NCBI GenBank assembly: GCA_003140115.1
Contig: PLIQ01000139.1
Coordinates: 1-9,834, forward strand
Origin: Actinomycetota bacterium
GTDB taxonomy: Bacteria > Actinomycetota > Actinomycetes > Streptosporangiales > Streptosporangiaceae
Direction of reading: 5' to 3'
DNA: 9,834 nucleotides
Positions 76 to 9,834 of this stretch are shown here, one piece after another. Below the pieces are notes generated by a model. That model saw only the letters and a program-made list of their open reading frames with translations. It was not told the origin of the DNA and searched no databases. Within the stretch, counting starts at the first letter, position 1. Every line of letters starts with the position of its first letter. Made by a program: the position numbers and the translations under genes.

Positions 76-1062
76 TTAGCGCTGGCCCTGGACCGTGATC
101 CGGTAGACGTTGACCTGATAGGTGCCGGCCGGGTCGGGCGGCAGCTTGGTGAACCAGACGAGCAGGTAGCGGGCGTGAACCGGGGTGCCGAGCCGCAGCG
201 TCAGCGTACCGCTGGCGGTCGAGGAAGCCACCGGCGGCAGGTCGGCCAGCACCGGCTGGCTTCCGGCCCGCAACTGGAGGCTGGCGCCCGCGGCACCGCC
301 GAGCGAGAGCCGCACCGAGGAGATCGTGACCGGACGGCCCATGTCGAGCAGCAGGCCGGTGCCCGCCTGCATGTCCCCGAAGTCCGCGGTGGCGTACCAG
401 TCGCTGTACCAGGGCGTGGCCGGGTCCCCCGCGATCGCGAGCGCGGCCCGCTGCGGGTCGTCACCGTCGGCGGTCCCGGCCGGGCCGAAGGCGGTCACCT
501 GGGCCGGGGTCAGGGCCCGGACCGCCACCGGGCTGGCCGACGCGGTCGCGGTCGGGCTGGCCTGCGCGCTGCTGGCCTTCGCGATGCCGGTCTGGACGCT
601 GGGCGTGGTGGCCGACACCGCCGCGGGCTGGCCGGCGTGGGTCGGCCGCTGGCCCGAGGCGTCGGCCGCGCGCTGGGTCTTGCCGACTCCGGAGGCGAAC
701 TTGTAGCCGGCGAAGCCGATCACGGCCAGCACCAGGACGGCCAGGGCGGCCGTCCACCGGACCCGGCGCCGCTCGCGCTTCCTGACCGGCAGGACGGGCT
801 GGAAGGCCTCGGCCGCGGTCATCTCCTGGGCGGACCGCCACGTCTGGTCGAACTCCTCGATCAGCGACGCGGGACCGGTGCCCACCGCCTCGGCGATGGC
901 GCGGATATGACCCCGGGCGTAGAAGTCACCGCCGCAGGCCGCGTAGTCGTCCTGCTCGATGCCCTCGATGATGTTCTCCCGGACCCGGGTGCGCGCGCTG
1001 ACCTCGGCGATGGACAGACCGGCATGGCGACGGGCCGCGGCCAGTGTCGCGCCGATGCTCAC
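76..1062 (-). CDS. RodZ-like HTH protein with one TM helix and discoidin-like C-terminus
   Basis: This is a predicted single-pass membrane protein of 328 aa. Residues about 3-70 form an Xre/RodZ-type helix-turn-helix (IGATLAAARRHAGLSIAEVS, then a region with DDYAACGGDFYARGHIRAIA, typical of the HTH_25 domain). A basic cluster (RKRERRR) precedes a TM helix at about 103-123. An Ala/Ser/Thr/Pro-rich linker follows to about 180, then a beta-rich domain (183-328) with GTGLLLDMGRPVTISSVRL and ARYLLVWFTKLPP motifs. Such discoidin/F5-8C-like domains occur at the C-termini of actinobacterial kinases and MviN/MurJ proteins. The GTG at 1062 is chosen because GGGAGG (1068-1073) sits 5 nt upstream; an upstream ATG at 1122 lacks one. 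The basic residues before the TM put the HTH in the cytoplasm and the C-domain outside. A role in cell shape or envelope is inferred from the domain plan. The gene lies 88 nt after purE. Confidence 0.8.
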   Translation of the reverse strand: MSIGATLAAARRHAGLSIAEVSARTRVRENIIEGIEQDDYAACGGDFYARGHIRAIAEAVGTGPASLIEEFDQTWRSAQEMTAAEAFQPVLPVRKRERRRVRWTAALAVLVLAVIGFAGYKFASGVGKTQRAADASGQRPTHAGQPAAVSATTPSVQTGIAKASSAQASPTATASASPVAVRALTPAQVTAFGPAGTADGDDPQRAALAIAGDPATPWYSDWYATADFGDMQAGTGLLLDMGRPVTISSVRLSLGGAAGASLQLRAGSQPVLADLPPVASSTASGTLTLRLGTPVHARYLLVWFTKLPPDPAGTYQVNVYRITVQGQR

Positions 1063-1124
1063 GCCCGCCTCCCAGGCTGACCGACCGATTCCCCTTCCGG
1101 CAAAGGGCTGCCGAGGGAGCATGC

Positions 1125-1143
1125 CCGGATCCGGCGGATTCTA
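1125..1143 (-). promoter_or_regulatory. Candidate promoter/operator of the HTH-discoidin gene
   Basis: On the minus strand TAGAAT (1138-1143) is a good -10 hexamer, directly followed by a perfect 10-bp palindrome CCGGATCCGG (1125-1134) near the expected transcription start. No clear -35 is visible. A weak 5-bp hairpin (CCCTT/AAGGG, 1092-1107) lies in the leader, without a U tract. The gene could therefore be transcribed separately from purKE. Confidence 0.35.
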
Positions 1144-1150
1144 AGCCGGT

Positions 1151-1663
1151 TCACCCGGCAGCCCGGCGATCACGCAGCGCGGCGCCCTTGGCCCGGGCCT
1201 GGTCGGCCAGGTGCGCGGCGAACGAGACGAGCCGGGCACGCAGCGCCGCGGCGGCCGGGTCCTCGGCGGCGGCGAGGATGCGGACGGCGAGCAGGCCGGC
1301 GTTGCGCGCGCCGCCGATCGCGACGGTCGCGACCGGGATCCCGGCTGGCATCTGGACGATCGACAGCAGCGAGTCCAGGCCGTCCAGGGCGGCCAGCGGA
1401 ACGGGGACGCCGATGACGGGCAGCGGCGTGACCGAGGCCAGCATGCCCGGCAGGTGCGCGGCGCCGCCCGCGCCCGCGATGATCACCCGCAGGCCGCGGT
1501 CGGCCGCCGACGACCCGTACTCGATCATGTCCCGCGGCATCCGGTGCGCCGACACCACGTCCGCCTCGTACGGGACGGCGAACTCGTCAAGCGCCGCAGC
1601 CGCGGCCTGCATGACCGGCCAGTCCGAGTCGCTGCCCATGACGATCCCCACCACCGGGTTCAC
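1151..1663 (-). CDS. purE: N5-carboxyaminoimidazole ribonucleotide mutase (PurE, class I)
   Basis: PurE moves the carboxyl group of N5-CAIR to carbon 4 to give CAIR in de novo purine synthesis. The 170-aa protein has all class I landmarks: GSDSDW near residues 10-15, SAHRMP (38-43, carrying the conserved histidine), [12 protein letters not shown] (63-74), and the P-V-I-G-V-P segment around 82-87. The length is normal for the family. The GTG start at 1663 has an AGGAGG (1671-1676) 7 nt upstream and overlaps the purK stop in a GTGA, so the pair is translationally coupled. The C-terminal tail is basic (RARAKG-like, RDRRAAG). A much longer upstream extension of this frame runs over purK in another frame and is not coding. 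Confidence 0.96.
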
Positions 1664-2865
1664 GGGCCGTCCTCCTGGCCCCAGCGCAGGTAGCTGGCGG
1701 CCCGGCGGGCCCGGTCCGCGAGTTCGGCCGGGTCGCGGTGGCTCCGGTCGGCGGTCACCGTGACGTGGCCGATCTTGCGGCCGGGACGAACCGGCTTGCC
1801 GTACATGTGCACCTTGACCGCCGGGTCGCCGGCCATCACGTGGATATACCGGTCGTAGACATCGTCGTCGTCGCCGCCCAGCACGTTGGCCATTACGGTC
1901 ACCGGCGCGGCCTGCGCCGGCGACCCGAGCGGCAGGTCCAGGACGGCCCGCAGGTGCTGCTCGAACTGGGAGGTGACCGCGCCCTCGATGGTCCAGTGGC
2001 CGCAGTTGTGCGGGCGCATGGCCAGTTCGTTGACCAGCAGCCCGCGTGAGGTCTGGAACAGCTCCACCGCGAGCAGCCCGGTCACGTCCAGCTCGGCGGC
2101 GATCCGCAGCGCCAGCTCCTGCGCTTGCACCGCCAGTTCGTCGGCCAGCCCCGGCGCGGGAGCGATCACCTCGCGGCAGATGCCGTCCCGCTGGACGGTC
2201 TGCACCACCGGGTACACCGCCCCCTGCCGGTGCGGCGAGCGGGCCGCGAGCACGGCCAGCTCGCGCTCGAACGCGACGTACTCCTCGGCGATCAGCGCCA
2301 GGCCGTGCGCGAGGACGGCCTGGGCTTCGTCCGCCGAGGCGCACACCCAGACGCCCTTGCCGTCGTAACCGCCGCTGACCGCCTTCAGCACCACCGGCCA
2401 CGACCCGGCCGCGAACGCCTCCACCTCGGCGATCCCGTTCACCGGCGTGAACCGCGGGCAGTCGATGCCCAGGCCGGCCAGCCGCTCCCGCATGGCCAGC
2501 TTGTCCTGGGTGAAACGCAGCGCCGCGGCGGCGGGCCGGACCGGGACGCCCGCCTGCTCGAGGGCGGCCAGGTGCTCGCCTGGCACGTGTTCGTGGTCGA
2601 AGGTGAGCACGTCGCACCCGGCGGCGAAGTCGCGCAGGTCAGCCAGGGAGCGGTAGTCCCCGAGCTGCGTCCCGGCGGCCACCTGGGCGGCGCTGTCGGT
2701 CGCCGAGCCGGCCAGGACGCGGAATCCGACGCCCAGGCCGTTGGCCGCCTGGGCGGTCATCCGGGCCAGCTGGCCGGCGCCCACCATGCCGACCACGGGC
2801 ACCACGGGGTCCCCGCCCCGGGTGGCGCGGGGCGGCGCGCCGGGTACTTCCAGGGAGCTGGTCAC
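1660..2865 (-). CDS. purK: N5-carboxyaminoimidazole ribonucleotide synthase (PurK)
   Basis: This ATP-grasp enzyme makes N5-CAIR from AIR, bicarbonate and ATP and passes it to PurE, encoded just downstream. In the 401-aa product, the N-terminal PurK motif [11 protein letters not shown] is at 26-36, the actinobacterial FDHEHVP near 89-95, the ATP-grasp lid [11 protein letters not shown] at 161-171, and the signature [12 protein letters not shown] at 279-290. The C-terminal lobe ends with KIGHVTV near 364-370. The GTG at 2865 is preferred: a TAGGGT hexamer lies 7 nt upstream (leaderless arrangement), and farther upstream starts would overlap that promoter. The N-terminus has about 20 extra, Pro/Arg/Gly-rich residues before the core, so a slightly later start is possible. 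The last codons overlap purE. Confidence 0.95.
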
Positions 2866-2878
2866 GGTCCGTACCCTA
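2866..2878 (-). promoter_or_regulatory. Leaderless-type promoter of purK
   Basis: TAGGGT at 2873-2878 (minus strand) matches the TANNNT -10 consensus and lies exactly 7 nt before the GTG at 2865. Transcription would begin on or next to the start codon. No strong Shine-Dalgarno is present, which agrees with a leaderless mRNA. No TTGACA-like -35 is seen. Confidence 0.5.
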
Positions 2879-2955
2879 CGTGACCGGTGGCACGCAGGTG
2901 AGGAGGACAGGAACCACGGGTCGTTCGGCATAAATATGGAAGCCTGGCGGGGCGA

Positions 2956-2965
2956 AAGTTAACTT
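2956..2965. promoter_or_regulatory. Palindrome in the purK/permease divergent region
   Basis: AAGTTAACTT is a perfect 10-bp palindrome in an otherwise GC-rich intergenic region between purK and the NCS1 permease. Its position 30-90 bp from both predicted transcription starts would suit an operator shared by the two. The regulator is unknown and nothing in the sequence names it. Confidence 0.35.
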
Positions 2966-2995
2966 CGGGGATACACCGGGCCGGGGTCGCGGATC

Positions 2996-3018
2996 TATGA
3001 TCACGGCAACCGAAGGAG
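2996..3018 (+). promoter_or_regulatory. Candidate -10 and ribosome binding site of the permease gene
   Basis: TATGAT (2996-3001) is a near-consensus -10 hexamer, followed by AAGGAG (3013-3018), a strong Shine-Dalgarno 7 nt before the ATG at 3026. The leader would be only about 15-20 nt. The -35 region has no recognisable TTGACA. The Shine-Dalgarno is certain enough to fix the start; the -10 is less sure. Confidence 0.5.
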
Positions 3019-3025
3019 CAGGCTG

Positions 3026-4450
3026 ATGGCAACACGCGACCAGGACGTTACCCACGGCAGCGGCGCGGAAGCGGGCGTGCTGGTCCGCGAGGGCAGTTAC
3101 GGCAGCCAGGTCATGACCGTCGAGCCGGGCGGCGCGGAATTTATCCCGCTGAACGAGCGGCACGGCCGGCCGATCCAGCTGTTCTGGACCTGGACCTCGC
3201 CGAACATGGAGTTCGCCACGATCTTCGTCGGCGTGCTCGCGGTGTCGGTGTTCGGCATGGGCTTCTGGTCGGCGGCGCTGGCCCTCATCCTGGGTAGCGC
3301 GATCGGCGGCGTGACCCAGGGCATCTTGTCCCTGCGCGGCCCGAAGTACGGGGTGCCGCAGATGGTGCTGAGCCGCCTCGGGTTCGGCTACTGGGGCAAC
3401 GCGCTGCCCGCCGGGCTGAACGCGGTCACCGCGGGCATCGGCTGGTTCGCGGTCAACAGCGTCAGCGGCGCGCTGGCGCTTAACGTGCTGACCCACCTGC
3501 CGCAGGTACTCTGCCTGCTCATCGTCGTGGCGCTGCAGGTGGTGGTCGCCTTCTTCGGCTACAACCTGGTGCACCTGTTCGAACGGTACGCCTTCCCTAT
3601 CCTGACCGTGATCTTCCTTATCGCGTCCGGTGTCGTGCTGAGCAAGGCCCACCCCGGCGCCACCCACCACACGTTTCCGGGCGCGTTCCTGCTGACGTTC
3701 GGCGCGTCGTTCGGCTACGCGGTCGGCTGGAACCCGTACGCGGCGGACTACACCCGCTACTTCAGGCCGGATGCCAGCAGGCGCGGCATCGCCTGGTGGT
3801 CCGGGAGCGGGCTGTTCCTGTCCTGCGCGCTGCTCGAGATCGTGGGCGCGGCCGTCGGCACCGCGGTCAGCGCGGACAAGGCGACCGCCGGTCCCGGCGG
3901 CATGACCAGCCTGCTGGCCACCCCGCTGGCCGACCTGACGCTGCTGGCCATCGCGCTCGGCGCGGTCTCGGCCAACGTGCTCAACATCTACTCCGGCGCG
4001 CTGTCCTTCACCGCGATCGGCATCAAGCTGCCGCTGTCGCTGCGGCGGGCGATCGTCGCGCTGGGGTTCGGCATCATCGGGTTCTTCCTGGCCTGGTACG
4101 GGCTGTCCAATGTAAGCAAGTACGAGAACTTCCTGCTGATCATCGCGTACTGGATCGCGCCGTGGCTGGCCGTGTACTTCTGCGACCTGTGGCTGCGGCG
4201 CAACCCGGACGAGGCGCTGCTGTTCTGGACGCGGCGGACGAACTGGGCTGGGCCGGTGGCCATGCTCGTCGGCATGGGCATCTCGATCTGGCTGTTCTCC
4301 AACCAGACCGAGTACGTGGGCGTGGTGCCGACCCATGTGCCGTCGGTCGGAGACCTGACCTTTGAGGCCGGCTTCCTGATCACCGCGGTGGTGTACCTTG
4401 GCTGGCACGCCGTGGCCCGGACCGGGCGGGAGAACACGCTGGCGGGCTGA
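3026..4450 (+). CDS. NCS1-family nucleobase:cation symporter (cytosine/purine permease-like)
   Basis: This is an integral membrane transporter of 474 aa, a usual size for the purine-cytosine permease (NCS1) family, with about 12 hydrophobic segments. Family features seen are GPKYGVPQMVLSRLGFGYWGN (105-125, starting near TM3), FGYNLVHLFERYAFPILT (177-194) and NPYAADYTRYF (236-246, the conserved region after TM6). The N-terminal 50 residues are hydrophilic and cytoplasmic. The family imports nucleobases or related compounds with H+ or Na+; the substrate (cytosine, purine, allantoin, hydantoin) cannot be read from the sequence. Divergence from purKE supports a purine or pyrimidine base. The start is fixed by AAGGAG 7 nt upstream. 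Confidence 0.9.
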   Translation: MATRDQDVTHGSGAEAGVLVREGSYGSQVMTVEPGGAEFIPLNERHGRPIQLFWTWTSPNMEFATIFVGVLAVSVFGMGFWSAALALILGSAIGGVTQGILSLRGPKYGVPQMVLSRLGFGYWGNALPAGLNAVTAGIGWFAVNSVSGALALNVLTHLPQVLCLLIVVALQVVVAFFGYNLVHLFERYAFPILTVIFLIASGVVLSKAHPGATHHTFPGAFLLTFGASFGYAVGWNPYAADYTRYFRPDASRRGIAWWSGSGLFLSCALLEIVGAAVGTAVSADKATAGPGGMTSLLATPLADLTLLAIALGAVSANVLNIYSGALSFTAIGIKLPLSLRRAIVALGFGIIGFFLAWYGLSNVSKYENFLLIIAYWIAPWLAVYFCDLWLRRNPDEALLFWTRRTNWAGPVAMLVGMGISIWLFSNQTEYVGVVPTHVPSVGDLTFEAGFLITAVVYLGWHAVARTGRENTLAG

Positions 4451-4496
4451 GCGCGGCGCGGGCTGAGCTCCGGGCGGTTTGAGAGGGGCGGCTCAG
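4442..4496 (+). terminator. Weak candidate terminator after the permease
   Basis: CTGAGC (4463-4468) and GCTCAG (4491-4496) can form a 6-bp stem with a 22-nt loop just past the permease stop. There is no U tract. The stop codon itself lies in an exact 11-bp direct repeat, GCGGGCTGAGC, at 4442-4452 and 4458-4468. Termination here is only possible. Confidence 0.25.
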
Positions 4497-4528
4497 GGAA
4501 GAGTAAGCCGGCACCCAGGCGTAGCCGG

Positions 4529-4604
4529 TAGCATGTGCGGGTCTTGCTTGAAGCCTGCCGGGGGTTTGCGCAGGCCGCTCCTGACGTCGTACATGCCGAA
4601 AGGA
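4529..4604 (+). promoter_or_regulatory. Candidate -10 and ribosome binding site of the GtrA-family gene
   Basis: TAGCAT (4529-4534) could be a -10 element, with no clear -35. AAAGGA (4599-4604) is a good Shine-Dalgarno 9 nt before the ATG at 4614 and decides that start over in-frame ATGs at 4479 and 4593. The rest of the 163-nt gap shows no further structure. Confidence 0.4.
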
Positions 4605-4613
4605 CCCTTTTCT

Positions 4614-5234
4614 ATGCCCAGGATGGCAAGCCTCCGCAAGCGCTTGACCGACCTGATCCCGGAACTGGCAAGGTTCGGCGTGGTCGGGCTGATCGGGTCG
4701 GTCATCGACCTGGGCGGCGCGGACTACCTGCACATCCACATGGGCATCGGGCCCCTGGTGGCCAAGGCGGCCTCGATTGCCGCGGCCACGGTGATCACCT
4801 ATCTGGGCAGCCGGTTCTGGACCTTCCGGCACCGGGTCAACCAGGCGCTGCTGCGCGAGGGCCTGCTGTTCGTAGTGCTGAACATCATCGGCCTGGCCAT
4901 CGCCGAGGTCGTGATCGCGGCCACCACGTACGGGCTCGACATGAAGTCGGAGCTGGCCTACAACGGGGCCAGCGTGGTCGGCACCGGGCTGGCGACGATC
5001 TTCCGGTACTTCTCGTACAAGAAGTGGGTCTTCCTGGCGGGCGCACCCGGCACCGTGGTGGCGGCCGGAGAGGCGGCGGTGTCCGGGATCGTCGACTCGG
5101 CCGAGACGAGCCCGGTGGGTGTGGCGCTGACGGGTGCCGGTGACGGGCCGCCGTGGGAGGAGCTCGAGCCGCCCGGCTACTCCCCCGCTTGGGAGCACCT
5201 CGAGCCGGCCGACTCCGACGGCGGGCGCCGCTGA
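4614..5234 (+). CDS. GtrA-family membrane protein with acidic C-terminal tail
   Basis: This is a four-TM membrane protein of the GtrA/DPMS family, whose members are thought to flip polyprenyl-phosphate-linked sugars or otherwise serve cell-surface glycan synthesis. In the 206-aa product, ELARFGVVGLIGSVIDLGG (17-35) is the typical first helix, SRFWTF (66-71) the signature after helix 2, and RYFSYKKWVF (131-140) the usual close of the domain. The first 140 residues match the family length. The remaining 65 form a soluble, Gly/Ala/Glu-rich tail ending in two W-E-x-L-E-P repeats (181-186 and 193-198, period 12). In mycobacteria a GtrA-like gene also neighbours purK/purE (Rv3277 beside Rv3276c/Rv3275c), so this linkage is old. 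The ATG at 4614 is supported by AAAGGA. The glycan substrate is unknown. Confidence 0.88.
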   Translation: MPRMASLRKRLTDLIPELARFGVVGLIGSVIDLGGADYLHIHMGIGPLVAKAASIAAATVITYLGSRFWTFRHRVNQALLREGLLFVVLNIIGLAIAEVVIAATTYGLDMKSELAYNGASVVGTGLATIFRYFSYKKWVFLAGAPGTVVAAGEAAVSGIVDSAETSPVGVALTGAGDGPPWEELEPPGYSPAWEHLEPADSDGGRR

Positions 5235-5246
5235 CGCTTGTCAGCG
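5229..5246. terminator. Hairpin between convergent genes, likely shared terminator
   Basis: CGCTGAC-GCTT-GTCAGCG forms a perfect 7-bp stem with a 4-nt loop. It overlaps the GtrA stop codon (5232-5234) and ends 5 nt before the histidine kinase stop (5251-5253). It reads the same on both strands and could end transcription from each side. There is no U tract on either side, so its strength is uncertain. Confidence 0.55.
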
Positions 5247-5250
5247 CTCA

Positions 5251-6255
5251 CTAGGCGGGGCCGCGGACCGGCTGGGTGCCGGGCCGCAGCGGGTGCCGGG
5301 GCAGGAACACCCCGAACGTGGCGGGATTGGCCTTGACCAGCACGACCCGGCCGCCGTCGGCGGCGGCCATGGTCCGGGCCAGCGCCAGGCCTAGCCCGGT
5401 GCCCTCGGGGCGGCCGCTGACGCTCCGCTCGAAGATGCGCGAAACCAGGTCCGGCGGGACGCCGTTACCCTCGTCCCGGACCTCGATCACCACCGACCGC
5501 GCGCTCTGCGAGGTCTGGATGGTCACCGTGCCGCCGCCGTGCATCAGCGCGTTGTCCAGCAGGGTCGCGAGCACCTGGGCCAGTCCGCCGGGAGTGACGT
5601 GGGCCTGCAGGTCGCGCACGCCGATGACGACCAGCTTGCGCCGGGCCCGGCGGAACGCGGGCTCCCACTCCACGACCTGCTGTTGCACGATCTCGTCGAT
5701 GCCGGTCAGCTCGGCCGAGGCCGCGGTCGCCCGGCGGGCCGGGCTGAGCAGCTGGGTGACGACGTCGGCGAGGCGTTCGGCCTGGGCCAGGGCGGCGCTG
5801 CCCTCTTCGCGCACCACGTCGGGGTCGTCCGCGGCGGCGATCATCTCCTCCAGCCGCATGGACAGCGCGGTCAGCGGGGTGCGCAGCTGGTGCGAGGCGT
5901 CCACGGCGAGCTCACCGCCCGCGGCGAGCAGGCTGGACAGGCGCCGGGCCGAGCTGTCCAGCCCGTCGGCCACCTGATCCAGATCGGCCACCCCGTACCG
6001 GCGGCCGAGCGGGCGCGGGTCCCCGGCGCCGAGCCGGGCGGCGGCTTCGGCGAGTTCCTCGACCGGCCGAGCCATCCGGCCCGCGAGCACCCCGGCCAGC
6101 CAGGCGGCCAGGGCCACCGCCCCGGCCATCAGCCCGGCCACGACGGCCACCGCGCCCGCGCCGCGCCCGGTGACGATGACCAGCGCGGGCACGCCCACCA
6201 CCAGGATCGCGGCCACCGCCACGGAGAAGATGGAGAACCATAGCCTCCTGCGCAC
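5251..6255 (-). CDS. Sensor histidine kinase with minimal extracytoplasmic loop
   Basis: This is the membrane kinase of a two-component system, partner of the regulator encoded 37 nt upstream. The protein is 334 aa. TM1 is about 7-28 and TM2 about 33-57, with only a few residues (TGRGAG) between them, so there is almost no external sensor domain. A HAMP-like linker (58-110) is followed by the H box DASHQLRTPL (119-128, phospho-acceptor His122), the N box LLDNALMHG (232-240), the G1 box DEGNG (261-265) and the G2 box GTGLGLALA (285-293). All residues needed for ATP binding and autophosphorylation are present. The start is a GTG at 6255; its ribosome site is weak, which fits coupling to the preceding gene. 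The stimulus is unknown; a membrane or cell-wall signal is suggested by the architecture. Confidence 0.93.
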   Translation of the reverse strand: MRRRLWFSIFSVAVAAILVVGVPALVIVTGRGAGAVAVVAGLMAGAVALAAWLAGVLAGRMARPVEELAEAAARLGAGDPRPLGRRYGVADLDQVADGLDSSARRLSSLLAAGGELAVDASHQLRTPLTALSMRLEEMIAAADDPDVVREEGSAALAQAERLADVVTQLLSPARRATAASAELTGIDEIVQQQVVEWEPAFRRARRKLVVIGVRDLQAHVTPGGLAQVLATLLDNALMHGGGTVTIQTSQSARSVVIEVRDEGNGVPPDLVSRIFERSVSGRPEGTGLGLALARTMAAADGGRVVLVKANPATFGVFLPRHPLRPGTQPVRGPA

Positions 6256-6292
6256 GGCTCAGCCCGCAGTCGCCGCGAGGGCCCCGTCCGGG

Positions 6293-6964
6293 CTAGTCGC
6301 CGCGTTCAAAGCGGAACCCGACGCCGCGGACCGTGGTGATGTACCGGGGGCTGTGCGCGTCGTCGCCGAGCTTGCGGCGCAGCCAGGAGATGTGCATGTC
6401 GAGCGTCTTGGTGGAGGTCCACCACTTCGCGTCCCACACCTCGCGCATGATCTGCTCGCGGGTGACGACCTTGCCCGCGTCCCGCAGCAGGATCCACAGC
6501 AGGTCGAACTCCTTGGTGGTCAGGTCCAGCTCGACGTCGCCGTGCCAGGCCCGGCGCGCGTCGGGGTCGATCCGCACGCCGAGTACCGCGGAGCCCTCGG
6601 CCGTCCCGCGCCGCAGCAGGGCGCGGACCCTAGCCAGCAACTCGGCCAGCCGGAACGGCTTGGTCACGTAGTCGTCGGCGCCCGCATCCAGGCCCACCAC
6701 GGTGTCCACCTCGTCGGCGCGGGCGGTGAGGATCAGCACCGGCACCGTGTAGCCGCTGGCCCGGACCCGCCGGCAGACCTCGAGCCCGTCGAGCTCGGGC
6801 AGGCCGATGTCGAGCAAGATCAGGTCGACGCCTTCGCCGAGGGCCCGGTCCAGCGTGGCCGGCCCGTCCGCGGTGACATCCACGTCGTACCCCTCGCGGC
6901 GCAGGGCCCGGGACAGGGGCTCGGAGATGGAGGCATCGTCCTCGGCGAGCAGCACGCGAGTCAT
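6293..6964 (-). CDS. OmpR/PhoB-family response regulator
   Basis: A DNA-binding regulator of 223 aa, the standard length. The receiver domain (1-115) shows the acidic pair D9-D10, phospho-acceptor D52 in LLDIGLP, T80 and K102 in the K-P-F motif. The winged-helix effector domain (about 128-221) has LTTKEFDLLWIL, VVTREQIMREVW and TTVRGVGFRFE, as in PhoB. The ATG at 6964 opens at the conserved MTRVLLAEDD. A longer upstream frame exists but crosses the promoter and the carboxylase gene. The gene is first in an operon with the histidine kinase. It probably binds the 11-bp-spaced repeats in its own promoter and autoregulates (inference). Confidence 0.95.
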   Translation of the reverse strand: MTRVLLAEDDASISEPLSRALRREGYDVDVTADGPATLDRALGEGVDLILLDIGLPELDGLEVCRRVRASGYTVPVLILTARADEVDTVVGLDAGADDYVTKPFRLAELLARVRALLRRGTAEGSAVLGVRIDPDARRAWHGDVELDLTTKEFDLLWILLRDAGKVVTREQIMREVWDAKWWTSTKTLDMHISWLRRKLGDDAHSPRYITTVRGVGFRFERGD

Positions 6965-6989
6965 ACCTAAATAGTAAAGGAAAGGTAAA
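6965..6989 (-). promoter_or_regulatory. Promoter of the two-component operon with 11-bp-spaced repeats
   Basis: On the minus strand TACTAT (6971-6976) is a -10 element 6 nt from the ATG at 6964, a leaderless layout. TTTAC occurs at 6985-6989 and again at 6974-6978, exactly 11 bp apart. One helical turn between direct repeats is the binding pattern of OmpR/PhoB-type regulators, and the second copy overlaps the -10. The stretch is strikingly AT-rich for this genome. Confidence 0.5.
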
Positions 6990-6996
6990 ACGTTTG

Positions 6997-7025
6997 CCGC
7001 GTAAGCGGGGTTGGCCCTCACGCGG
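6997..7025 (-). terminator. Candidate terminator of the lyase-carboxylase operon
   Basis: CCGCGT (6997-7002) pairs with ACGCGG (7020-7025), and inside it GGGG (7007-7010) can pair with CCCT (7015-7018, one G-U) around a TTGG loop. In the direction of the carboxylase gene the hairpin begins at its stop codon and is followed within 10 nt by GTTTTACC and further T runs. Those T runs also belong to the response regulator promoter. Confidence 0.4.
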
Positions 7026-8535
7026 GGCTGATGCCGTGGCGGCGGCGGGGCGGGGTGCGGTCGCGGCCGCGGGCGACGGCGAACCGGCGGATCAGTTCGT
7101 CGCGCAGGTCCTCGGGCTCCACCACGTCGTCCACGACGAGTTCGGAGGCGAGCCGCAGGATGTCGATGTCCTGCTCGTAGTCGCGGCGGAGGCGGTCGGT
7201 CTCGGCGGCCCGCTCGGTCTCGTCGGCGATCTGCTCGAGCTTGTTCGCGTAGACGGCGTTCACCGCGGCCTCGGCGCCCATGACCGCGATCTTGGCCGTC
7301 GGCAGGGCGAGCGTCGCGTCCGGCTCGAAGCCGGGGCCCGCCATCGCGTACAGCCCGGCCCCGTAGGCCTTGCGGACCACGACGCAGATCTTGGGCACGG
7401 TGGCGTCGGACATGGCCGCGATCATCTTCGCGCCGTGCCGGATGATGCCCTGCCGCTCCACGGCGGTGCCGACCATGAAGCCCGGCACGTCGGCCAGGAA
7501 CAGCAGCGGGATCCCGAACGCGTCGCAGGTCTGGATGAACCGGGCCGCCTTGTCCGCCGAGTCGACGAACAGCACCCCGCCCTTGAACATGGGGTTGTTC
7601 GCGATCACGCCGGTCACCCGGCCGTCCAGGCGGGCGAAGCCGGTGACGAGCTCCCGGGCCCACAGCGCGTGGATCTCGAAGAACGAGTCCTCGTCGGCCA
7701 CGCCGCGGACGAACCGGCGCATGTCGAAGGCCTGGCGCTCGCTCTCGGGCACCAGCGCCCGCAGGTCAGTCGGCTTGGGGTCCCGCGCCGGGAACACAGG
7801 CAGCGGCGCGGACCAGTTCTGCGGCAGGTAAGACAGGTAAGCCCGGACCGCGTCCAGCGCTTCGGCCTCCGAGGACGCCAGGAGATGCCCGCTGCCGGAC
7901 ACGGTGCAGTGCAAGCGGGCACCGCCCATCTCCTCCAGCGTGGTCTTCTCGCTGACCACCATCTCGACCATCCGCGGGCTGCCCAGGTACATCGAGGCGT
8001 TGCCGTCCACCATCGCGGTGAAGTCGCAGAACGCCGGGATATACGCGCCGCCCGCCGCCGACGGGCCGAACAGCGCGCAGACCTGCGGGATCGAGCCGGA
8101 GGCGCGGATCTGGGTGCGGAAAATACGCCCGGCGCCGCGGCGGCCGGGGAACATGTCCACCTGGTCGGTGATCCGGGCCCCGGCCGAGTCGACCAGGTAG
8201 ATCATCGGGATGGCGGTCTCGTAGGCCTGCTCGATGATCCGGATGATCTTCTCCACGGTGCGGGCGCCCCAGGACCCGGCCTTGACCGTGGAGTCGTTGG
8301 CCATCAGCGCGACCGGGCGGCCGTCTAGCAAGGCGGTGCCTGTGATCACGCCGTCCGCGGGCAGTCCGTCGGCCAGGGCGTTGGCGTACCGGCCGTCCTC
8401 GGTGAAACTGCCCTCGTCGGTCAGGACGGCGATCCGCTCGCGGGCGAACAGCTTGCCGCGCGCGGCGGCGGCCTCGTGGTAGCGGGTGGCGCCGCCGCGC
8501 TCGATGCTCTCGCGCAGCTTTCCGAAGTCAGTCAT
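7018..8535 (-). CDS. Acyl-CoA carboxylase carboxyltransferase (beta) subunit, methylcrotonyl-CoA type likely
   Basis: This subunit moves CO2 from biotin to an acyl-CoA in a biotin-dependent carboxylase and needs a biotin carboxylase/carrier (alpha) subunit, which is not in the window. The 505-aa product has two crotonase-fold halves. The N-terminal half holds FGPSAAGGAYIPA (156-168, first oxyanion hole), the C-terminal half has DVPGFMVG (349-356) and RKAYGAGLYAMAG (388-400, second oxyanion hole), followed by AEAAVNAVY (421-429). The length suits MCC/PCC-type beta subunits. The ATG overlaps the HMG-CoA lyase stop as ATGA, so the two are co-translated; this pairing points to 3-methylcrotonyl-CoA (leucine breakdown) rather than propionyl-CoA. 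The basic tail RGRDRTPPRRRHG looks dispensable. Substrate assignment is by context. Confidence 0.88.
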   Translation of the reverse strand: MTDFGKLRESIERGGATRYHEAAAARGKLFARERIAVLTDEGSFTEDGRYANALADGLPADGVITGTALLDGRPVALMANDSTVKAGSWGARTVEKIIRIIEQAYETAIPMIYLVDSAGARITDQVDMFPGRRGAGRIFRTQIRASGSIPQVCALFGPSAAGGAYIPAFCDFTAMVDGNASMYLGSPRMVEMVVSEKTTLEEMGGARLHCTVSGSGHLLASSEAEALDAVRAYLSYLPQNWSAPLPVFPARDPKPTDLRALVPESERQAFDMRRFVRGVADEDSFFEIHALWARELVTGFARLDGRVTGVIANNPMFKGGVLFVDSADKAARFIQTCDAFGIPLLFLADVPGFMVGTAVERQGIIRHGAKMIAAMSDATVPKICVVVRKAYGAGLYAMAGPGFEPDATLALPTAKIAVMGAEAAVNAVYANKLEQIADETERAAETDRLRRDYEQDIDILRLASELVVDDVVEPEDLRDELIRRFAVARGRDRTPPRRRHGISPA

Positions 8536-9449
8536 GGAGCGATTGTCCTGGTGCGGGGGCCGGCCCGCAGCACCTGGGAGGGCAGGGTGCGACCGACGAT
8601 GCTCTCCGCCTCGGCGGCCGCGGCGATCATCGCCTCCAGGTCGATCCCGGTGGCCACTCCCATGTCCTGCACCATGTGCACGAGTTCCTCGGTGGCGATG
8701 TTGCCCGTCGCGCCCGGCGCGTAGGGGCAGCCGCCCAGGCCGCCGACCGAGGCGTCGAAGTCGGACACGCCGAGCTCCAGCGCAGCCAGCACGTTGGCCA
8801 GCCCGGTGCCGCGCGTGTTGTGGAAGTGCAGGTTCAGGGCGGTGTCCGGATGGGCCGAACGAAACGCCCCGACCAGCGCCCGGACCCGGGTCGGCGTGGC
8901 CATGCCGGTCGTGTCGCCGAAGGAGGCCGAGTCGGCCCCGTCGGCCAGGGCCCGCCCGGCCACCGACACCACCCGGCTGACCGGCACGTCGCCCTCGTAC
9001 GGGCAGCCCCAGGCGGTGGACACGATGACCTGCACGGTCGCGCCGCGGTCGTGGGCGACCGAGATGATCTCGGCGATCTCCTCCAGCGACTGCCCGGTGG
9101 ACCGGTTCACGTTCTTGCGGTTGTGCGTCTCGGAGGCCGAGACGACCGCCTCGAGTTCGGTGCAGCCGACGTCGAGGGCGCGCAGGGCACCACGGAGGTT
9201 CGGCACCAGGGCCGAGTACCTGACCGACGGGGCCCGGACCGCGCGCTTCCACACCTCTTCGGCGTCGGCCATCTGCGGGATCGCCGACGGCCGCACGAAC
9301 GACACCGCCTCGATCCGCTGCACGCCGGTGCCGGACAGCCGGTCCAGCAGCGCCACCTTCGCGTCAGTCGGCACCGGGTCCTCGTTCTGCAGCCCGTCCC
9401 TCGGCCCGACCTCGCGCACCGAGATCCGGTCCGGCAGTTCCCAGCTCAT
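8532..9449 (-). CDS. Hydroxymethylglutaryl-CoA lyase
   Basis: Splits HMG-CoA to acetoacetate and acetyl-CoA, the last step of leucine degradation, in the cytoplasm. The 305-aa TIM-barrel protein carries every expected site: VGPRDGLQNE near the start (R17, metal ligand D18), SASETHNRKNVN (104-115), the metal ligands H208 and H210 in LHFHNTRGTG, and the signature GGLGGCPYAPGATGN (236-250) with catalytic C241 and N250. The ATG at 9449 is chosen because GGGGAG (9457-9462) lies 7 nt upstream and the protein then starts at the family's usual N-terminus (a few residues before RISVREVGPRDG). It overlaps the stop of a 14-residue mini-ORF (ATGA) at its start and the carboxylase start (ATGA) at its end, so a chain of coupled starts runs through it. 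Confidence 0.94.
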   Translation of the reverse strand: MSWELPDRISVREVGPRDGLQNEDPVPTDAKVALLDRLSGTGVQRIEAVSFVRPSAIPQMADAEEVWKRAVRAPSVRYSALVPNLRGALRALDVGCTELEAVVSASETHNRKNVNRSTGQSLEEIAEIISVAHDRGATVQVIVSTAWGCPYEGDVPVSRVVSVAGRALADGADSASFGDTTGMATPTRVRALVGAFRSAHPDTALNLHFHNTRGTGLANVLAALELGVSDFDASVGGLGGCPYAPGATGNIATEELVHMVQDMGVATGIDLEAMIAAAAEAESIVGRTLPSQVLRAGPRTRTIAP

Positions 9450-9490
9450 GCTCTGTCTCCCCGCTCGCCTGCAAACCAAGGCTCGCTCAC
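9446..9490 (-). CDS. Leader mini-ORF 2 (14 aa), coupled to HMG-CoA lyase
   Basis: The peptide is MSEPWFAGERGDRA (GTG start), differing from mini-ORF 1 at residues 6 and 13. A GGGGAG (9498-9503) lies 7 nt before its GTG. Its TGA overlaps the ATG of HMG-CoA lyase (ATGA), and its 3' end carries the GGGGAG (9457-9462) used for the lyase. Six of its 13 codons after the start end in A or T (CCT, TTT, GCA, GGA, AGA, GCA), far from the usage of the flanking genes. A role in setting lyase translation by re-initiation is inferred. Confidence 0.55.
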   Translation of the reverse strand: MSEPWFAGERGDRA

Positions 9491-9531
9491 GCTGTGTCTC
9501 CCCGCTCGCCCGCAGACCAAGGCTCGCTCAT
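9487..9531 (-). CDS. Leader mini-ORF 1 (14 aa), first of the repeat pair
   Basis: The peptide is MSEPWSAGERGDTA: small, hydrophilic, with no membrane segment and no leucine. Its ATG at 9531 lies 6 nt after a TAGCCT -10 hexamer, so it may be the first codon of a leaderless mRNA. The stop TGA overlaps the GTG of mini-ORF 2 (GTGA). GGGGAG at 9498-9503 lies inside its 3' end and would serve mini-ORF 2. Codons CCT, TCT and ACA are unusual for this GC-rich strand. The peptide may have no function of its own. Whether it is translated is not shown by the sequence. Confidence 0.55.
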   Translation of the reverse strand: MSEPWSAGERGDTA

Positions 9532-9563
9532 GCCTTCAGGCTAACCGGCCGCGGGAGTTAGCC
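9532..9563 (-). promoter_or_regulatory. Leaderless-type promoter and inverted-repeat operator of the lyase operon
   Basis: TAGCCT (9538-9543, minus strand) lies 6 nt before the ATG of mini-ORF 1 and fits a leaderless -10. It overlaps a perfect inverted repeat, GGCTAAC (9539-9545) - 11 nt - GTTAGCC (9557-9563), whose half-site centres are 18 bp apart. A dimeric repressor bound here would block RNA polymerase. The regulator is unknown; the GntR-like fragment at the right edge is one candidate. Confidence 0.45.
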
Positions 9564-9603
9564 GGCCGGCTGAGCAGGCGTTCAGCGGGCCTTATTGCGG
9601 CTC

Positions 9604-9676
9604 GGAGAAAATTCAGGAACTTCTCCATGGCTACTCCCAGGTCAGCCGCTATAACTACAGGTGAGGGGGTACAGAG
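9604..9676 (+). promoter_or_regulatory. Upstream region of the rightward Tat-like ORF
   Basis: GGAGAA (9604-9609) and TTCTCC (9621-9626) form an inverted repeat around an inner TTC-AG-GAA (9612-9619), an operator-like shape. TATAAC (9650-9655) is a possible -10. GAGGGGG (9663-9669) is a Shine-Dalgarno 7 nt before the ATG at 9677. The remainder of this divergent gap shows nothing else. Confidence 0.35.
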
Positions 9677-9832
9677 ATGGCTGCAGATGGCTTGACCCGC
9701 CGGCAACTGCTGGGGCGGGGCGCAGTGGTGACGGCGAGCGTGGGCGGGCTGGCCGCGGCGGGCGGGGCCGGTTACGCGTGGCCGCGGCCCGCGGCGGCGG
9801 CCACCAGGCCCTCGCGTTCCAGGTCGCGGTAG
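9677..9832 (+). CDS. Short ORF with twin-arginine (Tat) signal-like N-terminus, possibly broken
   Basis: The 51-residue product starts MAADGLTRRQLLGRGAVV, with the pair R8-R9 followed by x-L-L, then a hydrophobic, Ala/Gly/Val-rich stretch to about residue 34. This is the layout of a Tat signal peptide. After A39-A42 it turns into an Arg/Ser tail (RPSRSRSR) and stops with TAG at 9830. A genuine exported protein should continue with a mature domain, and none is present in this frame. The last 60 nt are antisense to a GntR-like sequence. It may be a signal peptide cut off by a rearrangement, a frameshifted gene that continues beyond the window, or a small real peptide. Confidence 0.4.
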   Translation: MAADGLTRRQLLGRGAVVTASVGGLAAAGGAGYAWPRPAAAATRPSRSRSR

Positions 9833-9834
9833 GC
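9772..9834 (-). CDS. C-terminal end of a GntR-type helix-turn-helix regulator (partial)
   Basis: The minus-strand frame entering from the right edge reads AYRDLEREGLVAAAAGRGHA and stops at TAA (9772-9774). The A-Y-R-x-L-E-x-E-G-L-V ... G-R-G pattern is the recognition helix and wing of GntR-family DNA-binding domains. Family members usually continue into an effector domain, but short GntR-only proteins ending soon after G-R-G also exist. The gene would point toward the HMG-CoA lyase operon. The identification rests on 20 residues only. Confidence 0.45.
   Translation of the reverse strand, partial: AYRDLEREGLVAAAAGRGHA

Follow-up and report, generated by a model that had tools for sequence, protein, structure and literature searches.

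A dispersed, MIRU-like repeat family at gene start codons in Actinomycetota, probably mobile and carrying a putative stop/start relay

The window analyzed here, a stretch of 9,834 nucleotides from an Actinomycetota bacterium of the Streptosporangiaceae, carries on its minus strand a gene for HMG-CoA lyase (8532..9449), which was identified by profile and homology (a PF00682 match, and an NCBIfam hydroxymethylglutaryl-CoA lyase match above the cut-off) and starts with ATGAGC at 9449. Directly upstream, two tandem units of a 41-bp repeat occupy positions 9531-9450 of the minus strand, unit 1 at 9491..9531 and unit 2 at 9450..9490, as indicated by alignment, TRF, and pattern matching. The units are identical at 37 of 41 positions (90% in the alignment), their array had the highest TRF score (146) of the 12 rows obtained for the window, and the unit pattern matched twice, with 0.00 matches expected from 200 dinucleotide shuffles. 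Each unit contains a 14-codon open reading frame. Mini-ORF 1 (9487..9531, minus strand, ATG to TGA) reads as the 14-residue product MSEPWSAGERGDTA and shares GTGA with mini-ORF 2 (9446..9490, minus strand, GTG to TGA, also 14 aa), which starts with GTG, reads as SEPWFAGERGDRA following its start residue, and overlaps the lyase start in ATGA. On the same strand, an SD-like GGGGAG, found by reading and SD-like matching, stands 7 nt ahead of mini-ORF 2 (9498..9503) and another 7 nt ahead of the lyase (9457..9462). Thus, the two units with their frames, which a first-pass annotation had described, were recovered at unchanged coordinates, and reading of the sequence bore out its account of the GGGGAG spacing and of the GTGA and ATGA overlaps.

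The order in the window is TAGCCT, 6 nt, ATGAGC, the repeat units, and then ATGAGCTGG. TAGCCT (9538..9543, minus strand) reads as a putative −10 box 6 nt upstream of the mini-ORF 1 ATG, a spacing of the leaderless type. Each unit also contains a candidate hairpin on the minus strand, proposed from covariation and single-unit MFE folds, at 9504..9527 in unit 1 (six pairs, a possible tandem G.A, and an 8-nt loop) and at 9463..9486 in unit 2, where the MFE fold has one extra loop pair. Two plus-strand frames (8676-9695 and 8794-9561) cross the units but run antisense through the conserved lyase, and a gene on that strand was rejected. A divergent plus-strand frame of 51 codons at 9677-9832 has a twin-arginine-like N-terminus (RRQLLGRG) and stops with TAG at 9830-9832 near the window edge; it may be a short or broken gene.

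A strict DNA pattern formulated at the peptide level matched the genome collection at a single locus, L001, in an "Actinobacteria bacterium" MAG (G001), where a pair of units separates two genes and overlaps the downstream one in GTGA; this downstream gene is mutS-like (NCBIfam matches partial and below the cut-off). Comparison of the window's units with G001 by BLAST gave eight places at E ≤ 0.006. Model R1, built from the window's 2 units and 11 of those in G001 (13 in total), detected in G001 12 units at 9 sites with E 0.0021 or better, 11 of the 12 being training members; matches in this genome at E 0.027 and above were left out. Among 100 relatives, 18 genomes matched R1 at E ≤ 0.01, of which eight (G001-G007 and G010) were kept as carriers; each of the other ten had a single weak match (E 2e-4 to 8e-3), the context of which was read for some of them. 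With its training confined to the window and G001, R1 recovered new copies in G002-G007 and G010. Five carriers besides G001 had matches at E ≤ 1.1e-5, and G004 (8.6e-4) and G006 (1.7e-3), with weak independent matches, were taken as carriers for the position of these matches. Weak matches within the carrier clade at G003:C128, G004:C905 (L072), and G010:C39 (L071) were left out.

A stem-containing model of 30 units, R2, matched the same eight carriers at E ≤ 1e-4 and no other of 345 genomes of one order; 28 of its 29 matches are training members, the one new match being L121 in G002, and its informative part is the absence of matches in other genomes. In an even draw of 396 genomes across the phylum, G001 alone matched at E ≤ 0.001. 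Searches of more than 40 genomes were run with stricter filters, at which weak matches are lost, and as far as these sequence searches reach, the repeat family is narrow. Matches in the plasmid collection were limited to four short, weak ones (E 0.2-0.6), the phage collection had no repeat matches, the peptide-level pattern had no match in viral contigs, and Rfam had no match at E ≤ 1 in 9300-9834. No title or abstract opening among the open-licence papers searched described the family.

The window alone shows two copies only, as would be expected if the lyase start region had simply been duplicated in place, unrelated to any repeat family. A search of related genomes had been proposed in the first-pass annotation as a check, and copies were found in eight carriers, so that the family is not local to the window. 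Chance local duplication was ruled out by these dispersed copies (BLAST of G001 and the R1 search of relatives); with homologous units scattered in other genomes and the lyase starts of relatives repeat-free, it retains practically no probability. Within arrays, duplication probably acted: array mates had similarities of 0.80-1.00 (7 pairs) compared with a mean of 0.77 for units of different sites (428 pairs), which argues for tandem duplication, and the window's second unit most likely arose in this way from the first.

Over most of 103-9448, blastn segments and tblastx show the window to be collinear with G010 contig C64, with a permease at approximately 3026-4450 outside the blastn coverage. 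Its PurK is 71-73% identical to those of G001 and G003, 81% to a partial match in G010, and 70% to that of the noncarrier G019. Its lyase is closest to those of the noncarriers G021 (87%) and G022 (85%), followed by G010 (84%) and G003 (82%); G010 carries the family without a unit at the lyase. The PurK and lyase identities and the collinearity with G010 would place the window in or near the carrier clade, a placement that is not firm.

The site table comprised 26 sites, including the window, and 32 units, and its counts are not independent because the copies are of common ancestry. Unit spacing was 36-48 bp (41 in the window), and arrays of two or three units occurred at 5/26 sites. The ORF of the last unit overlapped the next gene in an exact NTGA at 15 of the 26 sites, which supports the stop/start relay architecture suggested earlier from the window but lends no support to a tuning of expression by copy number; the distances of 36, 39, or 45 at these 15 sites are multiples of three by the definition of the overlap and add no evidence. 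It had also been argued that a length of 41 bp preserves the relay, which is right, and units of 38 and 47 bp as well as arrays fused in frame also reach the overlap. Where the array spacing bars a relay (L001, L004, L074), the units form one continuous frame, which likewise terminates in the gene's NTGA. The remaining 11/26 sites had no exact relay: the unit is fused into N-terminal coding sequence (L010, L068), the frame is shifted (L008), the next start is not NTGA (L051, L055, L057, L070, L077), an early stop intervenes (L121), or no start directly follows the unit (L073, L075). The units of L010 (G001) and L068 (G005) lie within the N-terminal coding part in different reading frames.

NTGA was found at 15 of 18 downstream starts (p = 4e-4), where the denominator includes L077 and would be 17 if limited to those gene loci at which the start comes directly after the unit, and where the p-value is a rough guide, being set against 16/38 starts in one Streptomyces plasmid region with sites treated as independent. 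On the upstream side, the stop of a frame of at least 100 codons overlapped the first NTGA of the unit at 7/26 sites, among which prfA at L003 alone was profile-checked and three have a second candidate frame. The upstream frame runs into the unit at two sites, L001 and L054, the latter being gatA. At L054 (G010, gatA/gatB), GatA would gain a C-terminal TSEPWFSGERGGSA tail ending in the GTGA overlap with gatB. A TANNNT box exactly 6 nt ahead of the mini-ORF ATG occurred at three of the 26 sites, namely the window, L009 (purB of G001), and L121 (a gene of G002).

Downstream genes above NCBIfam cut-offs include those for PrmC, NuoK, the Rieske subunit QcrA, FolD, PurB, GatB, AspS, dihydropyrimidinase, and a YgfZ-like protein, and those at L001, L007, L008, L051, L052, L059, L075, and L077 were below the cut-off or unmatched. 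This range of genes bears on the idea of a regulatory leader-peptide chain, in which tandem mini-ORFs are kept for tuning the lyase by attenuation or ribosome loading. An attenuator leader peptide combines conserved regulatory codons with an alternative terminator structure; in the mini-ORFs, codon 6 varies freely and the codon-position bias is weak. An unbroken relay is present in the window and at 15/26 sites, and arrays of two or three units recur at 5/26; in M. tuberculosis, a tandem repeat array is reported in PMC2734929 as linked to expression of the next gene. The repeat nevertheless precedes unrelated genes (mutS-like, prmC, nuoK, qcrA, folD, purB, gatB, aspS, dihydropyrimidinase) and was absent from all 13 upstream regions read for lyase orthologs of 75-87% identity, which makes a lyase-specific leader chain improbable.

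The repeat-free orthologs indicated what these sites look like without the units. At the lyase, three of the 13 orthologs (G010, G003, G022) have TA(A/G)CCT, 6 nt, and then GTGAGCTGG, and G021 has TAGTCT, 6 nt, and ATGGAT, that is, ATGG and not NTGA, so that a TANNNT box with 6-nt spacing precedes the lyase start in these four repeat-free relatives; the other nine have different leaders. The observation that the lyase itself begins with ATGAGC stands, but the suggestion that these six bases came from a third unit is unnecessary, because repeat-free G010, G003, and G022 have GTGAGCTGG there. The purB site is filled in G001; G007, G006, and G010 lack the repeat there and retain the box and its spacing, and G005 and G008 have other leaders. 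Decayed repeat copies were seen upstream of purB in G002 (L134) and G004 (L132). For dihydropyrimidinase, G007 has the filled site and G006 a repeat-free one, with GTGA shared, by reading, between the two genes; G003 is repeat-free within the 9 bases available before the contig edge. Two units precede prmC in G001 and one in G003 (one genome per species), and the site is repeat-free in G005, with a GTGA overlap with prfA by reading, and in G008 (TAATG). The folD gene has copies in G001 and G007 and repeat-free NTGA starts in G002, G005, G008, G010, and G003.

Three further dihydropyrimidinase leaders were recorded. L174 (G010, 47 nt) and L175 (G001, 29 nt) have, by reading, NTGA at both ends and an open frame, with little or partial similarity to the unit; they are either decayed copies or other relay cassettes. 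L176 (G004) shows a stem variant, GCGCGGC/GCCGCGC, where ordinary pairs would take the place of the GA/GA columns, and may belong to a further subfamily.

Insert lengths were determined by breakpoint scoring in twelve comparisons. The insert was 82 bp at the lyase against G022 (score 265; next best 81 with 262), 41 bp at purB against G007, 38 bp at dihydropyrimidinase against G006 (score 368; next other length 242), and, at prmC, 39 or 42 for one unit and 76 or 79 for two. The length was ambiguous or different in 4/12 comparisons: the lyase gave a best length of 49 against G010 and of 98 against G003 (score 253, with 247 for 82), and purB gave a tie of 56 and 41 against G006 and lengths of 84 and 53 against G010. 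Since NTGA flanks a unit on both sides, the joining side is not distinguishable. The empty orthologous sites fit a precise insertion at an NTGA start codon. Spread between start regions by recombination or gene conversion, with no transposition, would be in keeping with the lack of a linked transposase and with the short shared sequence that NTGAGC-like starts offer, but the clear-length inserts correspond to the unit length and the flanks of different sites are unrelated, and we consider this route unlikely. The view of the first-pass annotation that a repeat family might invade start codons and be tolerated there is well supported by the dispersed copies, the empty sites, and the housekeeping genes hit (aspS, gatB, nuoK, qcrA, prmC).

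The case for the hairpin is comparative. In the stem formed by positions 3-10 and 19-26 of the unit, paired changes preserved the pair at 3 of 6 pairs, and the covariation score of the stem was reached by 0/500 shuffles, with slid versions scoring far lower; the count of further pair types in the stem was reached by 486/500. A change from C-G to G-C occurs in three units of three genomes and may be one event. In 28 of 30 units, the inner stem columns read GA/GA, which would allow tandem G.A pairs. Single-sequence folding gives no support: the named stem was the MFE structure in 2/6 units, none of the six was clearly more stable than its shuffles (z −1.7 to 0.8), and a different structure, with the named stems absent, was obtained when both units of the window were folded together. 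A hairpin of this kind would serve as RNA or as single-stranded DNA.

The peptide offers another possible reason for the conservation of the unit, namely a functional 14-aa product. SEPW occurs in 23/32 units and SEPWxAGER in 15/32, and the mean entropy per column increases along the codon (0.33, 0.54, and 0.59 at positions 1, 2, and 3; 10 columns each, 30 units). This gradient is weak, however, with positions 2 and 3 hardly different, and the variable columns of the 30 units lie mostly in the hairpin loop (14-19), the tail (30-35), and one stem pair (10-19). The paired changes that keep the stem alter the peptide (SEPW to SEAW), and the leaders L174 and L175, by reading, have other peptides with the same overlaps. 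Consequently, a peptide gene was rejected, the codon-position bias being only weak, and we regard such a gene as very improbable. Given a covarying stem and a peptide without clear conservation, our guess is that the hairpin serves mobility.

Taken together, these observations lead us to a reading that we hold with good confidence, in which the units are a small dispersed, probably non-autonomous MIRU-like mobile repeat of one actinobacterial clade that enters at the NTGA of gene starts and, by means of a mini-ORF that couples itself to the gene, allows the latter's expression to continue. The repeat would insert at a start NTGA that is either the 4-nt stop/start overlap of an operon or the first codon of a leaderless-looking transcript; we infer transposition as the mode of spread. 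After insertion, NTGA stands on either flank, with an open frame bridging both and an SD-like sequence just ahead of the second, and a ribosome bound for the gene, directly or by coupling, should therefore start on the mini-ORF. Its translation would terminate at the second NTGA, where the ribosome may re-initiate on the gene, with a near-neutral effect on the latter. In the window, the promoter box now lies 6 nt ahead of mini-ORF 1, so that the transcript, presumably leaderless, would begin at this mini-ORF, and two relay steps would lead from there to the lyase. Sites of the leaderless type argue most directly for a relay, since insertion between such a promoter and its gene would impose a 41- or 82-nt leader on the gene; the element would provide both a start codon where the original one stood and an SD ahead of its new position.

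A relay step of this kind is plausible in actinobacteria, given the RTGA-coupled small ORFs on leaderless mycobacterial transcripts described in PMC4633059 (Shell et al., 2015), where the TGA of a leaderless small ORF overlaps the RTG of the next gene and, in the example given, the linkage is kept and the peptide is not. The likeness to the present cassettes is the RTGA coupling of a small ORF to the next gene on a leaderless transcript; the difference is that the ORFs described there are individual ones, whereas the cassette of the present family is dispersed and has empty sites.

The closest known elements are mycobacterial. MIRUs, the mycobacterial interspersed repetitive units, were reportedly described by Supply et al. 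in 1997. According to PMC12548453, they appear mobile, insert at start codons, and contain an internal ORF coupled with −4 spacing, and PMC3914561 and PMC2734929 give unit lengths of 46-101 bp and 40-100 bp, respectively. Judged by these descriptions, the present repeats resemble MIRUs in being short, tandem, and dispersed and in lying at start codons, where an internal ORF overlaps the next gene by 4 nt; MIRUs are regarded as mobile elements that affect the gene they enter only minimally. Start-codon insertion with a coupled internal ORF was found at 15/26 sites and was lacking at 11/26, and scattered tandem units were found as well (9 sites in G001; arrays of 2-3 units at 5/26 sites). By this analogy, the present repeats appear to work like MIRUs and to be the same kind of element. 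Their unit spacing of 36-48 bp (41 in the window) stands against 46-101 bp in PMC3914561 and 40-100 bp in PMC2734929, two ranges with different lower bounds, and the covarying stem, the leaderless-type sites, and the maximum of nine sites per genome are further features to be set beside the MIRU descriptions. We did not file the units as MIRU, because they are likened to MIRUs by published description and not by their letters and because 41 bp is shorter than the 46-101 bp of PMC3914561.

Short dispersed hairpin repeats beside a short target sequence are also typical of REP/RAYT and IS200/IS605-type elements, which involve a Y1 transposase. The present repeats share with these the short dispersed hairpin adjoining a short target and differ in lying at gene starts and carrying an ORF. 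When a link to a Y1 transposase was sought, PF01797 was found at E ≤ 1e-5 in one of the eight carriers (G007) and was absent from G001, and a RAYT-type REP was rejected on the ground that the Y1 family is present in 1/8 carriers.

The kind of element is thus already known from MIRUs, and what is new is another family of MIRU-like repeats, one in which empty sites and hairpin covariation can be seen. More tentatively, and at somewhat less than even probability, there may be a class of mobile elements that targets the stop/start tetramer NTGA, with MIRUs as its mycobacterial branch and the present family an independent or very distant one. Such elements would be tolerated in housekeeping genes because each copy is a complete relay of start, frame, SD, stop, and next start, the hairpin would be the transposition substrate, and leaderless promoters would be one landing place. 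The coexistence of filled and repeat-free versions of purB, dihydropyrimidinase, prmC, and the lyase makes the cost or gain of re-initiation through the NTGA overlap, as well as the mover of MIRU-like repeats, directly testable. If the proposed reading is true, the annotation of invaded genes would be affected, since their starts, N-termini, and small ORFs are easily miscalled, and start-codon invasion with a built-in translational relay would not be peculiar to mycobacteria.
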